Positions 11,342-41,366 of a stretch of 64,000 nt of DNA are shown in pieces; the first letter of the stretch is position 1; the number at the start of each line of letters is the position of its first letter. Where the stretch lies: the NCBI GenBank assembly GCA_910575705.1, contig CAJTFG010000001.1, positions 248,001 through 312,000 on the forward strand. Reading direction: 5' to 3'. The translations under genes and the position numbers were made by a program. The notes beneath the pieces were generated by a model, which worked only from the letters and a program-made list of their open reading frames with translations, did not search any database and was not told the origin of the DNA. The DNA is from Erysipelotrichales bacterium (lineage in GTDB: Bacteria; Bacillota_I; Bacilli_A; Erysipelotrichales; Erysipelotrichaceae).

Positions 11342-12226
11342 ATGCCGATATTACTAAAAAGAAAAAACGGCGAAATCACGCCGTTTCGCAATGCGGAATA
11401 TATTTCTGCATTCTACTTCATCCCCAAAAGCATTTTGGATAAGTGCGGAGAAGAAATAAACAGTATTCCAAGAAATCCAAGAAAATTGCTTCAAGATCTT
11501 CGTGCCATAGAAATAATAGAAAGTAATTTATTTAAGCTTGTAATAATTGATGCTTACGCCTTTATGGTGTGGCCTTTTATGGGGCTTGGCGCAAAAAGGG
11601 AAATTTATTCAGGATATGAGCCGTCTTGGAGATATGCGCACGCAGCTTCTATTTGGATTAAAGGAATGGAAGACGAAGGGGTTATCCCTAAGTCACAGGA
11701 GATATTAAAAAGTAGCAATGTAGACGAAGACCTCGGATATATATCCGAAGAAGAAATCTCAGAAACATTCACTTGGCTCGTTCCTAAAATAATGGCAAAA
11801 CACAATATGAATGAGATCATTGCTGTAGCAGCAGAATATCGCTGCTTTGAAGATTTTGATTATCGAAAGAGCCGACAAAAAATTGATTTTTACCGCAAGT
11901 GGTATCACACCCGTGCAAAAATATCCATTGAATCTCTTGATGAATTAAAAGAAAAGTATGCAGAGAATACAGACGGCATGGAGTGGGATATTCCCGATGA
12001 CAGTGTTAATGTTGAGAGTACCGTATTAGAGCCGATTGTAGTCAACGAATTTTTAGACACGCTTTCTGAAACAGACAGGAAAATACTCACAATGCGAATG
12101 GATGATGTTACACTCGAAAAAATCGCAGAAGAATTAGGTTTCAAAACTCACAGTGCTATTCACAAAAGAATCCGAAAGATTGGCTTGGCTTACGAAAAGT
12201 TCAGCGTCCGGCTCTGTATATGTTAA
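11342..12226 (+). CDS. Sigma-70 region-4-like protein, C-terminus overwritten by a cassette end
   Basis: The gene has a strong ribosome binding site (GGAAAGGAGG) before ATG 11342. The N-terminal two thirds of the 294 residues are not recognised beyond similarity to proteins of Bacillota mobile elements. Residues 235-285 (LSETDRKILTMRMDDVTLEKIAEELGF, then IHKRIRKIG) form a sigma-70 region 4 helix-turn-helix. The last residues SVRLCIC come from the cassette block CAGCGTCCGGCTCTGTA read in a foreign frame, so the original C-terminus has been lost or replaced at about 12195-12202. It could regulate island genes. It may still be functional because the HTH is complete. Confidence 0.7.
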   Translation: MPILLKRKNGEITPFRNAEYISAFYFIPKSILDKCGEEINSIPRNPRKLLQDLRAIEIIESNLFKLVIIDAYAFMVWPFMGLGAKREIYSGYEPSWRYAHAASIWIKGMEDEGVIPKSQEILKSSNVDEDLGYISEEEISETFTWLVPKIMAKHNMNEIIAVAAEYRCFEDFDYRKSRQKIDFYRKWYHTRAKISIESLDELKEKYAENTDGMEWDIPDDSVNVESTVLEPIVVNEFLDTLSETDRKILTMRMDDVTLEKIAEELGFKTHSAIHKRIRKIGLAYEKFSVRLCIC

Positions 12227-12267
12227 GAGATCATAATAAGTATTATGATTCGATATAAGATACAAAG
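12202..12267 (+). repeat. Cassette A, 3' end only (fused to the sigma-like gene)
   Basis: The constant block CAGCGTCCGGCTCTGTA is followed 27 nt after its first base by the 7-8-7 hairpin (GATCATA, loop ATAAGTAT, TATGATT, with one G-T pair). The outer arm is TACAAAG, one change from TACAGAG. The site from CTCTGTA to that arm is exactly 56 nt. In the cassette frame the sequence reads QRPALYMLRDHNKYYDSI then stop. The variable part and leader are absent and replaced by the sigma-like gene. Confidence 0.8.
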
Positions 12268-12341
12268 GAAAAAGGTAAAGAAAAATGAGGGCAGAGATTC
12301 GTTTAAAGCGGTAAGGTTAGGGTACTTGTTTCAATGAGGGC

Positions 12342-12611
12342 ACGATTTCTTACGGTCATAAAATGATTGTAAGACCACACACAGACCTTGCAGGCAGCAG
12401 TGATGCGTCTTTTCGTTTTTCTTCTTACAGTTCTTATGATAGGTATAGTCTTCAGTCCTCTCCACGAACAGACAGCAGAATCGGATCTTACGCAATAAGC
12501 TATCAAGGAAACATTTCGCTTGCCGAAGGCCTACATATCCATACCCAGCGTCCGGCTCTGTAGATATTCCAAAATTATAGTAAGAATTATAATATTATAT
12601 TACATACAGAG
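12342..12611 (+). other. Variable cassette B (silent C-terminal domain)
   Basis: The cassette starts at GCACGATTTCT (frame TIS) and reads 73 codons to QRPAL and TAG at 12561-12563. It has no start codon with an RBS. The protein segment is rich in Ser, Tyr and Arg and includes FRFSSYSSYDRYSLQSSPR. The inner hairpin at 12573-12594 is AATTATA/TATAATA around GTAAGAAT, and the outer arms CTCTGTA (12556) and TACAGAG (12605) span 56 nt. It follows cassette A in tandem and ends 7 bp before the stop of the antiporter gene. Confidence 0.75.
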
Positions 12612-12617
12612 GAATCT

Positions 12618-13544
12618 TTACCATAGCATCATAAAATAGCATATATAACCAAACAGCATTATCCAGCCACATCCACGATTTAGCTTCTTTCTCTTCCAAC
12701 AAAAAAGAAGAAGAAACAAAGTTGATACAGCCGCTACTATCACATCCAAGATAAACGATGACGCAAACGGAACCGGTACGATCAAAGCAGAAAGTCCGAT
12801 GACAAACAATATATTAAAAATATTGCTTCCGACGATATTTCCTATCGCAATATCTGCATTCCCTTTCCTAGCAGCTATCAGTGAAGTACACAGCTCCGGC
12901 AAGGAAGTACCGAATGCAACGATCGTCAATCCTATGAAACGCTCACTCACTCCTATATCGTTCGCGATCGCAACAGCCGCATCTACCGACAGATCACTTC
13001 CCCATATGATAAAGACCAATCCAACAACCGTAAGCATCAATAACTGCCATAGCGGACGACAAGAGATTATTTCTTCCTTTTTCTCTTTTTGCCTTCTTAC
13101 CAACATCAATAAATACCCGATGTATACAACAAAACAACCAAGCTGAACGATGCCGTCCGTAAATCCGATACTTCCATCCAATCCCTGAATAAAAAGAAGG
13201 ATGGTGATCCCTAATAAAAACGGCATTTCATAACGAACGGTACTTCTTGCTACCGGAAGCGATGCTATAAGCGCAGAAGCTCCGAGAATAACCAAGATAT
13301 TCAAAATATTGCTTCCGAGAATATTACCGATCGTAATATCCGCATTCCCTTTTAAAGCAGAAGAAATACTGACTGCGGCCTCCGGCGCACTGGTACCCAT
13401 CGCCACTACCGTCAGTCCGATTACCAGCTGTGAGATATTGCATCGCTTCGCTATCTGAGATGTCCCCTCAACAAACCGATCCGCTCCTTTTATAAGCAAG
13501 AAAAAACCAAAACAAAGCAATCCCGCCTGCAAACATATTTCCAT
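12618..13544 (-). CDS. CaCA-family calcium/sodium antiporter (YrbG-like)
   Basis: A 308-residue inner-membrane cation exchanger has ten or so hydrophobic segments and the two inverted alpha repeats of the family: GTSAPEAAVSISSALKGNAD with GNILGSNILN near residue 40-85, and GTSLPELCTSLIAARKGNAD with GNIVGSNIFN near residue 205-250. The acidic residues in these repeats bind the cation. The start at 13544 is preferred over 13625 because AAAAGGAGG lies a few bases upstream. The mRNA leader carries a yybP-ykoY riboswitch, so manganese or calcium export is the likely job. Confidence 0.92.
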   Translation of the reverse strand: MEICLQAGLLCFGFFLLIKGADRFVEGTSQIAKRCNISQLVIGLTVVAMGTSAPEAAVSISSALKGNADITIGNILGSNILNILVILGASALIASLPVARSTVRYEMPFLLGITILLFIQGLDGSIGFTDGIVQLGCFVVYIGYLLMLVRRQKEKKEEIISCRPLWQLLMLTVVGLVFIIWGSDLSVDAAVAIANDIGVSERFIGLTIVAFGTSLPELCTSLIAARKGNADIAIGNIVGSNIFNILFVIGLSALIVPVPFASSFILDVIVAAVSTLFLLLFCWKRKKLNRGCGWIMLFGYICYFMMLW

Positions 13545-13559
13545 ATAAGATCCTCCTTT

Positions 13560-13700
13560 TAAACGGCAAACAAAAAATGGCGCAGACATTGCCGTTTTTA
13601 TGACAAAGTCTCGCCATTTCATCACAAAGCCGGATCTTATGATCGTGCTGACGACTTTATAAACATAGAATCTTCTCTATGCAGGCTACTCCCTTTACGG
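13560..13700 (-). ncRNA. yybP-ykoY (Mn2+-sensing) riboswitch with expression platform
   Basis: On the minus strand the leader contains AAAGGGAGTAGCCTGC, then GTCGTCAGCAC, then CCGGCTTTGTGATGAAATGG followed by CGAGACTTTG. This is the order of conserved boxes in the yybP-ykoY family. Downstream, AAATGGCG can pair with CGCCATTTTTT to form a terminator. AAACGGCAA can pair with TTGCCGTTT just before the ribosome binding site. The family is known to activate export genes when Mn2+ is high. Confidence 0.8.
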
Positions 13701-15876: not shown

Positions 15877-15936
15877 ATAGCCACCTTCATTTCTCTTGTT
15901 ACTATACCACAAAACAACACGTTCATGTATGGCAGC

Positions 15937-16209
15937 CTCTGTATTTCATATACAGCCATGATACGCACCATGGTTATCAAATGTATACAGAGCCGGACGC
16001 TGTGGATAAGACTGCGACCATAATCCTCCATGATACATAGCAGAACCTTTATAACTGATACCGAATAATTTTCCTTTTGATAACACGGAAGAAGAATACA
16101 AATACCAAGACAACTTATCTTCATTTGCATGAAAGCACAAAGCACTTACTTGTGTACCTGTTAGATCTGACCCTACAACAGGAACAACATTATTTTTAAC
16201 AGAAATCGT
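15937..16209 (-). other. Variable cassette C (silent C-terminal domain)
   Basis: Read on the minus strand from 16209, the frame is TISVKNNVVPVVG through LSWYLYSSS and GLWSQSYPQRPALY, ending TGA at 15946 after FDNHGAYHGCI, 87 residues in all. There is no start codon with an RBS, and a stop lies upstream in the same frame. The folded site spans 15937-15992 (56 nt): outer arms CTCTGTA and TACAGAG, inner arms AGCCATG/CATGGTT with an 8-nt loop. First of three tandem minus-strand cassettes. Confidence 0.8.
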
Positions 16210-16368
16210 GCTGTCTTAGAAACGAACTCACCTTATAATGGAACCCCAGTCCGAGTTTTAAACACAGTTCCCCTTATGCATAAAAATTTATCCACTATTT
16301 CATTCTAACCTACCTATAAAATAACGATAACAGAATTTATAAAAATATGCAGGTAAAAAAGAAAGATC

Positions 16369-16672
16369 CTCTGTATGCTATGTGAAATTATAATGCTTAC
16401 TATAATTATTTATTATGCCTACTATAGAATATATACAGAGCCGGACGCTGAACTTTATCGACATTGCCAGCAGGTAAATCTATTGTCAGTTTGAAATTTG
16501 TTGAGCCTTGTTGATTCCCTGTAATACTCTGTCGACTAGAGAAAATTGTAGAAAACCATTTATCCTCGTATTGTGCAGCAGAACTGATTTTCCAACGAAA
16601 AGCATGGTCTTCTGATGGTATAGGGCCACTACCGGATGGGATTGCTTTTATCTTATGTCCTATAGAAATCGT
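16369..16672 (-). other. Variable cassette D (silent C-terminal domain, long site)
   Basis: From 16672 the minus strand reads TISIGHKIKAIPSGSG through FRWKISSAAQYEDKW and GNVDKVQRPALYIFYSRHNK to TAA at 16406, 88 residues. The folded site is 72 nt instead of 56 because of a 16-nt insertion between the QRPAL block and the hairpin. The outer arms (16369-16375, 16434-16440) are intact and the inner hairpin (AATTATA/TATAATT, 16386-16407) is perfect. Confidence 0.8.
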
Positions 16673-16805
16673 GCCCTCATTACAATGGAACCCCTAACCT
16701 GCCATTGTAAACGAACCTCTCACCTCTTTCTTCTTTAATCTACCTATGAAATAAGGATAACAGATAATTTACAAGGATTATTAGTAAATATTAGAAATGA
16801 CAAAC

Positions 16806-17105
16806 CTCTGTATGTTATATAGAACTATGCTTCCTACCATAGTTATCCTATTTCATCAGAGCCGGACGCTGCGTAATTATGGCATTGTGATGCGTTTCAT
16901 AAATATGATAACTATATACGTGACTAACAGATCCATTGCGCACTAAAATTACCGTTTGATTTGGAAAGCGAATATCGGAAGATGAGAGCCATGTCCACTG
17001 ATATTTGGCGGAAGATGTACTTGCCCACTTTAAGGGAGTAAAGTAATTTTCCTCCTACTGATCATCATTTATCTGTGCAAGAATTTCATTGCTCACAGAA
17101 ATCGT
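16806..17105 (-). other. Variable cassette E (with in-frame stop)
   Basis: From 17105 the frame reads TISVSNEILAQINDDQ, then an in-frame TAG at 17055-17057, then EENYFTPLKW through YQWTWLSSSDIRF and VYSYHIYETHH to QRPALMK and stop at 16848. The variable part is clearly related to cassette J. The internal stop shows it cannot be expressed whole as it stands. The 56-nt site is 16806-16861 with perfect inner arms AACTATG/CATAGTT. Confidence 0.8.
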
Positions 17106-17257
17106 GCCCCCCTTATAATGGAACCCCGCTCCTCATTATCTTCTTCCTACCTTTGGGACTTGGGACTGAATCCCAGACCAATCACCCCTTATACATAAAA
17201 TTTCATCCTTTTTATCCTACCTTATATGAAAATCTTAACAGATGCAAAAGAAAAAGC
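17106..17257 (-). repeat. Cassette E leader, near-identical to cassette F leader
   Basis: About 150 bp upstream of the coding entry of cassette E match the leader of cassette F (24062-24205) almost base for base, including GGAACCCCGCTCCTC, ATCCCAGACCAATC and CCTACCTTATATGAAAATC. The only clear differences are a tandem 7-bp insertion in E, one T and a few substitutions. The variable regions of E and F are unrelated. Confidence 0.85.
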
Positions 17258-17283
17258 ACAACTTCTACTATGAGAAAATGTGC
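17251..17283 (-). terminator. Terminator of the gene at 17346-17969
   Basis: On the minus strand AGCACA pairs with TGTGCT and is followed by TTTTTCTTTT. The cassette E leader begins at the end of this T-run. Confidence 0.5.
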
Positions 17284-23747: not shown

Positions 23748-23785
23748 TGATCACAAAATGATAACCCGCTTATCCATCGTGATTC

Positions 23786-24061
23786 CTCTGTATATCATAT
23801 AGAATTATAATCCTTATTATAATTTCCGAATATAAACAGAGCCGGACGCTGACGGACTACACCGTTGCTGTTAGCAGCATCAATAGTTGATTGTATTACT
23901 CCGGAAATAGAAAAGAGCAGAGGGAATTTAAAATCACGAAACGTAGATGACCAATAGCCGCAATCAATGCCGGGAGTGCATGTTCCATTTGCTGCATATG
24001 TAATGGAATCAAAATTGGATGAACCAATAATAACAGGAGTATAGTGCGCAACAGAAATCGT
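23786..24061 (-). other. Variable cassette F (silent C-terminal domain)
   Basis: From 24061 the minus strand reads TISVAHYTPVIIGSSN through CTPGIDCGYWSSTFRDFKF and NSNGVVRQRPALF to TGA at 23795, 88 residues with no start codon. CGYWSST followed about 35 residues later by RQRPAL is the clearest resemblance to C-type-lectin-like domains such as DUF1566/FISUMP, where YWSS(T/S) precedes a final VR motif. The folded site is 23786-23841 (56 nt) with perfect inner arms AATTATA/TATAATT. Confidence 0.8.
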
Positions 24062-24205
24062 GCCCCCCTTATAATGGAACCCCGCTCCTCATTATCTTCT
24101 TCCTACCTTTGGGACTGAATCCCAGACCAATCACCCCTTATACATAAAATTTCATCCTTTTATCCTACCTTATATGAAAATCTTAACAGACGCAAAAGAA
24201 AAAGC
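24062..24205 (-). repeat. Cassette F leader (copy of the cassette E leader)
   Basis: This upstream module is nearly identical to 17106-17257. It includes the consensus GGTTCCATTATAA and the ATAAGGTAGG motif seen in weaker form before other cassettes. It starts at the T-run of the terminator of the neighbouring gene, as in cassette E. Confidence 0.85.
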
Positions 24206-24222
24206 ATAGCTACTGCTATGCT
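24194..24222 (-). terminator. Terminator of the gene at 24228-25061
   Basis: On the minus strand AGCATAGC pairs with GCTATGCT around a 3-nt loop and is followed by TTTTTCTTTT. Confidence 0.8.
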
Positions 24223-38062: not shown

Positions 38063-38356
38063 ACGATTTCTGTTCATCATCAAATATTGCCGATATTCAC
38101 AACTACCTGTAGCGGACCGGCAATATCGCAATGTGACGGCTCTTATGATGTATTCTTTTCTTATTATGTCAGTGACGGTAGTGATCTTGATCATCGAATT
38201 TTATTATCCACGGCTCCTCTTGCATTGCAGTCAGCAGCAGTATACAGTTGCGGCGGCCTCAATACAGGAATAACCCGTGCTCGTTTCTATCAGCGTCCGG
38301 CACTGTCGATGTAAGGAGATCATGATAAGCATTATGATCGTATATAAAATACAGAG
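38063..38356 (+). other. Variable cassette G (silent C-terminal domain)
   Basis: The frame TISVHHQILPIFTTTC through FFSYYVSDGSDLDHRILLS and GGLNTGITRARFYQRPALSM ends in TAA at 38312-38314, 83 residues. There is no start codon with an RBS; an upstream ATG at 38039 lacks one. The folded site is 38301-38356 (56 nt) with a one-pair wobble in the inner arms (GATCATG/TATGATC) and substitutions in the left outer arm (CACTGTC). Confidence 0.8.
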
Positions 38357-38462
38357 GTTTTCATTTCCAGTATTTACTAACAATTATTTGAACATTATCT
38401 GGTATTCTTTCTATAAAGGTAGGCTTTTTATTCTTCTCTTCCCTTCTTGGATCAGCTATAGC

Positions 38463-38723
38463 ACGATTTCTAATTATCATGGTGTTGTTTTAGTTATAAA
38501 TAAGGAACCCGACATTATCCTCAGCTGGAAAAAGTTGACACAACAACAATGGGAAACTACCTTTTTGGCAACGCACTATGACCTAACAAGAACCGGGGGT
38601 TTACATTCCGATGGTTCTTGGGCAATGCCTCATGCCGCTATAACGCACGAAGCAATTCAGCGTCCGGCTCTGTACAGATTGGATAACTATGGTAAGTATC
38701 ATAGTTGTATATAAGATACAGAG
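38463..38723 (+). other. Variable cassette H (silent C-terminal domain)
   Basis: The frame TISNYHGVVLVINKEPD through LSWKKLTQQQWETTF and LHSDGSWAMPHAAITHEA to QRPALYRLDNYGKYHSCI ends TAA at 38712-38714, 83 residues. The 56-nt site 38668-38723 is the best example: outer CTCTGTA/TACAGAG, inner AACTATG-GTAAGTAT-CATAGTT, all perfect and concentric. It follows cassette G in tandem. Confidence 0.85.
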
Positions 38724-38737
38724 GAAAAAAAGATAAT

Positions 38738-40575: not shown

Positions 40576-40881
40576 ACGATTTCTGTTCATCATCAGATTA
40601 AAGTCATTGCAGGCGGTATGTGTACGATAACAGATGGCTCTTGTCAAAATGGTGCTAGCAGAGACACTTCTTTTCATTACTCTTTGCAGAATCTTCCAAA
40701 TCAGAAACCTCACTTTACACCAGGATCTACTGCTTCAAACGCTCATACGGTATATGGGCACTCTTTCACCGGTTATAGTGTTCTTGACCACCAATCTTGT
40801 TTCATATATCACTGGCAGCGTCCGGCTCTGTATAGATTCGATAACTATAGTACGTATTCTAGTTGTATATAAGATACAGAG
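40576..40881 (+). other. Variable cassette I (silent C-terminal domain)
   Basis: The frame TISVHHQIKVIAGGMC through SFHYSLQNLPNQKPHF and SVLDHQSCFIYHW to QRPALYRFDNYSTYSSCI ends TAA at 40872, 98 residues, the longest of the set. The 56-nt site is 40826-40881 with inner arms AACTATA/TCTAGTT (one mismatch) and perfect outer arms. It lies upstream of the metK leader, in the opposite orientation. Confidence 0.8.
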
Positions 40882-40988
40882 GTTTTCATATCCAGTATTT
40901 TCTAGCAAATATTCATGAGTATCTGTTATCCTTTCTATAAAGGCAGGTAAAAATGATAATGAGGTTAGGGTGTTCCTTTCTATGGTGC

Positions 40989-41285
40989 ACGATTTCTGTA
41001 TATAATAAGAAACCTGCATCAATATATGATGCTTGGGAAGGACCATATTTTGCACCGATGAATTGGAATATCCAAAGTGGGAAAGAACATGAATGGACTT
41101 GGTTATCATCACCAGACATGCAAAGAAAAAAAGAAGCAGCATATCTTGCTGAATATGGTAATCTTGATCAGGCCTATTCATATCATTCACCAATTACATA
41201 TCCTTCCGTTATTGTTGCTCAGCGTCCGGCTCTGTAAAAACTAGATAACTATGATAAGCACCATAGTTCCATATAACATACAGAG
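40989..41285 (+). other. Variable cassette J (silent C-terminal domain)
   Basis: The frame TISVYNKKPASIYDAWEG through YFAPMNW, WTWLSSPDM and AYSYHSPITY to QRPAL ends TAA at 41235-41237, 82 residues. The variable part is clearly related to cassette E. The 56-nt site is 41230-41285, with perfect inner arms AACTATG/CATAGTT around ATAAGCAC. It follows cassette I in tandem. Confidence 0.82.
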
Positions 41286-41366
41286 GAAACCTTATTTATT
41301 CTCGATAGCGCAGATGCTTGCATATTCTGCAAAATATATTAAAATATAACCAAGTGAGGGCAAGCT

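Follow-up and report, generated by a model that had tools for sequence, protein, structure and literature searches.

What are the short open segments that recur without start codons in a 64,000-nt stretch of an Erysipelotrichales genome, and how do they come to differ from one another? The window (the whole of this stretch) holds nine such cores, in cassettes B to J, on both strands, together with one block-and-hairpin element at 12202 that has no core. In cassette F the core starts two bases into the 5' anchor GCACGATTTCT and ends with CAGCGTCCGGCTCTG, with a leader before it and a hairpin after it; its translation (24061 to 23837, minus strand) is TISVAHYTPVIIGSSNFDSITYAANGTCTPGIDCGYWSSTFRDFKFPLLFSISGVIQSTIDAANSNGVVRQRPAL. 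The units of the window are as follows.

12202–12272, plus strand: element A, block and hairpin without a core, a remnant or an insertion
12342–12616, plus strand: cassette B, core (12342–12560) and hairpin
15932–16209, minus strand: cassette C, core (15988–16209) and hairpin
16364–16672, minus strand: cassette D, core (16436–16672) and a longer hairpin
16801–17105, minus strand: cassette E, core (16857–17105, one in-frame stop, WTWLSSSD) and hairpin
17106–17272, minus strand: leader of cassette E, a near-copy of the leader of cassette F
23781–23851, minus strand: IMH-like block CAGCGTCCGGCTCTG and 3' hairpin of cassette F (R1 match of 83.7 bits, E = 3e-19)
23837–24061, minus strand: core of cassette F, an open segment without a start codon (TISV...CGYWSST...QRPAL)
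24062–24220, minus strand: leader of cassette F, with the promoter-like element TCTGTTAAGAT...GGTAGG inside
38063–38361, plus strand: cassette G, core (38063–38305) and hairpin
38463–38728, plus strand: cassette H, core (38463–38672) and hairpin
40576–40886, plus strand: cassette I, core (40576–40830) and hairpin
40989–41290, plus strand: cassette J, core (40989–41234, WTWLSSPD) and hairpin

All nine cores lie clear of the main ORFs. The core-less element alone touches one; it overlaps the 3' end of the ORF at 11342–12226, as if it had replaced that gene's end. Within the window CAGCGTCCGGCTCTG occurs 11 times with up to three mismatches, against 0.49 expected, and no Rfam family was found there. 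The motifs that the preliminary description had picked out are all present in the translations: CGYWSST in cassette F, with the QRPAL end 35 residues beyond it, and WTWLSSSD and WTWLSSPD in cassettes E and J, each of which also ends in QRPAL. The leaders of E and F share about 92.7% identity over 178 nt, and their cores are unlike. Elsewhere in the window, the ORF at 12618–13625 contains an internal 112-nt repeat (12763–12874 and 13249–13360, 77% identity), like the doubled halves of an antiporter.

The same units are found throughout the genome (1.85 Mb in 11 contigs), where the CAGCGTCCGGCTCTG anchor, allowing at most one mismatch, marks 134 sites and the reversed control pattern none. Collection from the genome stretches gave 137 units, one of them spurious, hence about 136; the 137 are grouped in 62 arrays or singletons, the median spacing being 415 nt, and are scattered over the chromosome, with arrays on both strands and no common first site. 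In every unit a leader comes first; the 5' anchor GCACGATTTCT then opens a variable, start-less core, which is closed by the 3' anchor CAGCGTCCGGCTCTG, coding for QRPAL, and followed by a hairpin. One reading phase is common to 133 of the 137 units and is open in 130 of these, compared with 1.7 in composition shuffles. The cores span 59–97 codons including the anchors, are mostly less than 50% identical and, when clustered at 50% amino-acid identity, make up 70 groups. When 40 diverse cores are aligned, TIS at the start and three residues of the terminal QRPAL (R, P and L) are invariant, and the stretch between them contains a WxSS-like motif and a Gly; by a simple regular expression, W-(x)-SS is common rather than universal (66 of 125 cassettes). 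Across 196 genomes of the family, in 60 genera, the same anchors gave only scattered one-mismatch chance matches elsewhere, and two exact CAGCGTCCGGCTCTGTA matches lie in viral contigs. No sequence relatives of the cassettes or of the expressed domain described below were found in the PDB.

In only one unit does the reading frame extend upstream into a long ORF that carries a signal peptide. This frame, on contig C3 (197065 to 176531), encodes a secreted protein of 6,844 residues with Ig-like repeats (MBG_2, Big_3_2, Big_13) and a C-terminal membrane segment, and residues 311–386 form its variable segment, which ends, like the cassettes, in the IMH-like GC-rich block CAGCGTCCGGCTCTG. Its core is identical to that of a silent cassette at C1:632819 over 230 of 230 nt, and the donor copy is still in place. 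The identity reaches about 15 nt beyond GCACGATTTCT on the upstream side and 2 nt past the 3' anchor, and the leaders and 3' hairpins of the two sites are unlike; since an identical core is set between unlike flanks, cores are evidently copied between the fixed ends GCACGATTTCT and CAGCGTCCGGCTCTG. With most cassettes the expressed site shares about 11–15 nt at the 5' end (a run of 2–4 nt beyond the anchor) and 15–18 nt at the 3' end. An R1 genome search found no hairpin at the expressed site at E = 0.01, the weak match there (E = 0.034) being carried by the anchor. These observations support the view that the segments are silent alternative versions of one segment of one expressed protein. 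Shortly before the variable segment, residues 262–274 of the same protein contain an EF-hand-like stretch, DKNGNGKIDADEL (E = 0.014). Six silent cassettes (C1:395967, C1:347305, C1:519084, C1:620293, C2:118932 and C3:112082) also contain 25–42 nt that in the expressed gene are coding sequence upstream of the segment, a pattern suggesting that silent sites have in turn received sequence from the expressed gene.

The silent sites themselves show how cores and contexts come apart. In 11 of the 12 pairs of cores that are at least 93% identical the hairpins are unlike, most of them about as unlike as those of random pairs. Where it is the hairpins that are near-identical, the cores differ in length or are of low identity in 18 of 20 pairs. 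Such independent shuffling of cores against hairpins and leaders at the 3' anchor, the E and F leaders included, shows that exchange takes place at the anchors, and the comparison of pairs implies that silent sites receive cores as well as donate them. Exchange apparently can also be segmental, as some cores are shared over part of their length: those at C1:289220 and C1:437445 have only their first 184 nt in common, at 95% identity.

The genome contains one reverse TRANSCRIPTASE (RT), a protein of 412 residues with a YMDD motif that is of the type found in diversity-generating retroelements (DGRs) and scores above the cut-off for RVT_1. It lies about 12 nt downstream of an ORF of 181 codons that matches bAvd (PF22296, 45.6 bits against a cut-off of 40); the NCBIfam model DivGenRetAVD also matches this ORF (E = 2e-10), below its own cut-off. 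The nearest RTs, at 42–46% identity, belong to classical DGRs of uncultured Clostridia and Tenericutes, and a quick tree groups the present enzyme with classical DGR RTs, its exact position in that tree being unsure. In those relatives the order is avd, template repeat, spacer and RT, followed 1.3 kb downstream by the variable repeat, and the differences between template and variable repeats in four of them fall at template adenines in 11 of 11, 11 of 11, 11 of 11 and 8 of 9 cases. No template repeat was found beside the present RT: the gap between avd and RT is only about 12 nt, and the sequence upstream of avd is not repeated anywhere else in the genome. Among the 196 genomes of the family this is the only one with this Avd and the only one with cassettes. 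In the order, Avd is confined to this genome and a weak match below cut-off in one contaminated assembly, and in the class six further genomes have it. As Avd and cassettes coincide in a single genome, the co-occurrence counts as one event only. The involvement of the RT in cassette copying is inferred from its presence, the anatomy of the sites and analogy. Upstream of avd (L080, 8750–8820, minus strand) there is also a palindrome, GTGTGAATC...GATTCACAC, around a purine-rich AGGTGAGGAAGAAAAGG, which resembles parts of the cassette leaders.

Does this RT still mutagenize adenines? Cores that are 90–97% identical differ at 91 positions, in which T is involved in 57, C in 52, G in 38 and A in 35, and 48 of which are third codon positions; these mismatches look like ordinary drift under selection on the protein, not like DGR mutagenesis. 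The RT has Q208 in AQGNLVSQ (motif QGNLVSQ), at a position that is I, L or V in 79 of 80 relatives and Pro in the remaining one, and which we take to be the equivalent of I181 in the BPP-1 RT, the adenine-infidelity site. Handa and colleagues reportedly found in 2021 that a change at I181 of the BPP-1 RT lowers adenine misincorporation. Among viral relatives with a readable motif, none has Gln at this position. The preliminary description had proposed that variation here comes from whole-cassette exchange rather than from adenine mutagenesis, and this holds: an expressed and a silent core are identical, like cores carry unlike hairpins, and an adenine bias is absent. As a separate observation, in a prophage-like DGR from a Clostridia MAG (L111, 1–3594) the RT has Pro at the I181-equivalent, yet a pair of template and variable repeats that differ at adenines is apparently kept.

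Several readings of the library can be weighed on these data. That this is a DGR which still mutagenizes, with the cassettes as its old variable repeats or templates and with diversity mainly at adenines, would agree with an RT and an Avd that are both of DGR type; we regard it as very improbable, because A takes part in 35 of the 91 substitutions, below T and C, because third codon positions are favoured, and because expressed and silent cores can be identical. Adenine-mutagenized cassettes were rejected on the missing bias. Movement of integron-like cassettes by a tyrosine recombinase acting on folded, attC-like hairpins would account for short cassettes in tandem arrays, each cassette ending in an imperfect hairpin. 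An attC travels with its cassette, however, whereas here identical cores bear unlike hairpins; the arrays are dispersed on both strands without a common first site, and the genome has only two XerC/D-like genes and one further integrase, with no integron integrase seen. As the hairpins do not move with the cores, integron movement was likewise rejected, and we give it hardly any credence. Poorest of all stands the suggestion that the units are a dispersed repeat family without any function in exchange, whose open frames are incidental: the copies are indeed mostly silent and, as the units of the window illustrate, intergenic, but chance openness predicts 1.7 open frames where 130 of 133 are found, and an identical expressed copy exists.

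In the cassette hairpin the end of the 3' anchor, GGCTCTGTA, pairs with TACAGAGG, and the stem encloses a palindrome with an AAG loop. In 44 ungapped sequences the two sides pair in 93.6% of the cells, and double changes are seen at 11 of the 15 pairs. The covariation score of 0.340 was reached by none of the shuffles (mean 0.195), slid versions scored at most 0.145, and, while the closing stem was partly used in choosing the sequences, the inner helix, which was not used apart from the consensus structure, has double changes in eight of eight pairs. G-U cells outnumber A-C cells by 52 to 5; the excess indicates a structure that acts, and is kept up by compensatory changes, on the coding-sense strand, as would be expected of a template RNA. 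A hairpin model built from the cassettes alone was run unfiltered on seven classical DGR loci, in which the spacer hairpin sits just after the template repeat; it ranked this hairpin first in six and second in the other (13.0–17.8 bits), and since the seven loci are related and unrelated sites within them reach 14.4 bits, the resemblance is supportive and not a proof. In 91 kb of more distant DGR loci, used as a control, nothing scored above 11.1 bits and no match lay at a spacer. The cassette hairpin bears a weak resemblance to the spacer RNA of the classical DGRs with the nearest RTs. Of the 137 leaders, 50 contain the motif TG[TG]TA...GG[TC]AG, like an extended -10 element, compared with 2.35 after shuffling and none on the other strand. 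Genome-wide, as in the window at 17106–17272 and 24062–24220, leaders also contain short modules in varying number, among them GAGGATTGGAGTTCGCTTAATATGGTG and GGGGTTCCATTATAAGG, that are common to cassettes with unrelated cores.

The segments had been likened to the C-terminal half of C-type-lectin or FGE-like folds, and this comparison stands in part. In the classical DGRs whose RTs are nearest, the variable repeats read YWTKS...GGARPAL, which puts them in register with WxSS...QRPAL; their IMH-like end, GGGGCTCGCCCAG, specifies ARPA(L) where the present anchor specifies QRPAL. Proteins of the DUF6273, Fib_succ_major and C-type-lectin-like groups likewise have W-x-S-S...G...RPAL in this register in their C-terminal half. 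A profile of the 40 cores aligned with the classical variable domain in the expected register with P = 0.0032 at a probability of 10%. Neither the cassettes nor the expressed domain matched DUF6273, FISUMP, FGE or any other Pfam family of this fold, and an NCBIfam search with the expressed domain gave no match. The classical DGR target proteins match fold families weakly (E = 0.007–0.08), and AlphaFold models of the half-domain and of a classical target domain are too low in confidence to be used (pLDDT of 47.7 and 50.4). A lectin-like fold is plausible on the strength of the motif register.

We think it probable that the RT-Avd complex copies cassette RNAs into cDNA, which then takes the place of the core in the expressed gene and in other cassettes. 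Cassettes would be transcribed from their promoter-like leaders; RT-Avd would recognize the cassette hairpin in the way that a DGR spacer RNA is recognized and copy the core into cDNA; and this cDNA would home between the two short anchors and displace the core already there. With Gln at the adenine-infidelity position copying would be faithful, so that diversity would come from the stored library, not from random adenine changes, and because silent sites would receive cores as well, the library would spread and recombine. On balance we also lean towards the broader proposition that a DGR has been rebuilt into faithful, RT-driven switching, in which an RT without adenine mutagenesis copies about 136 dispersed template RNAs, each with a hairpin like that of a DGR spacer, into one giant surface gene and into each other. 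For homing in BPP-1 it is enough to have a 3' IMH and 5' identity over at least 8 bp, with a hairpin needed downstream of the target (PMC3240598), and RecA is dispensable for homing in a reconstituted system (PMC12875486). The hairpin-less expressed site counts against a plain copy of the BPP-1 mechanism, and the strand asymmetry of the base pairs suggests that the hairpin here serves the template RNA. The limited 5' identity of most cassettes with the expressed site, only about 11–15 nt, also speaks against copying by RT-Avd.

The main and serious rival to copying by RT-Avd is segmental gene conversion of the RecA/RuvAB type through short flanking identity, as in Borrelia vlsE and Neisseria pilE, with the DGR-type RT unrelated; we judge it unlikely, without dismissing it. 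It would accommodate one expressed and many silent copies, an identical donor that is retained, exact ends and mosaic sharing such as that between C1:289220 and C1:437445, and the anchored type known from Borrelia vls, where silent cassettes serve one expression site (PMC11499132), works without an RT. It would leave unexplained a covarying sense-strand hairpin and promoter-like leaders, an RT-Avd pair without a template, and the restriction of Avd and cassettes to this genome of the family. The ends available to it are also very short (for most cassettes 2–4 nt beyond the anchor at the 5' side and 15–18 nt at the 3' side), and the cores are mostly less than 50% identical, against about 90% in vls.

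With BPP-1-type or classical avd-TR-RT-VR DGRs (L091–L107) the present system shares a DGR-type RT with YMDD, bAvd, a target segment closed by an IMH-like block that encodes RPAL, homology over a short 5' stretch, a structured element after the template and retention of the donor on copying. Unlike them, it has no template repeat (TR) beside the RT and draws on about 136 dispersed donors; whole divergent cores are replaced without adenine mutagenesis, Gln occupies the I181-equivalent, and the hairpin is found at the donors and is absent from the expressed site. Given that the adjacent template, adenine mutagenesis and the I/L/V-G-x-x-x-S-Q motif are all lacking, this is not a canonical DGR. 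Borrelia vls and Neisseria pil resemble it in one expressed surface gene, many silent segments and a retained donor, and differ from it in that the present units are dispersed over the chromosome, are mostly less than 50% identical, each carry a conserved hairpin and share their genome with a DGR RT. Integron arrays are similar in their short tandem units with a folded 3' element (attC), whereas here the hairpin stays when the core moves and exchange takes place inside a reading frame. The best explanation is that the system works like DGR homing combined with silent-cassette switching; a literature search found no paper on DGRs with silent cassettes.

If this is true, two known means of varying a surface protein, silent cassettes that are stored and moved by DNA recombination and the random adenine changes of a DGR, would be joined in one system, as a stored library that is moved through RNA. 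It would also mean that a DGR is able to lose its mutagenic step and yet keep homing, and it would provide a naturally non-mutagenic RT of DGR type to set beside the mutagenic ones, and perhaps a natural route to RNA-templated replacement of segments. With about 136 donors in some 70 families, this may, by our own estimate, be among the larger libraries of segments for one bacterial gene.
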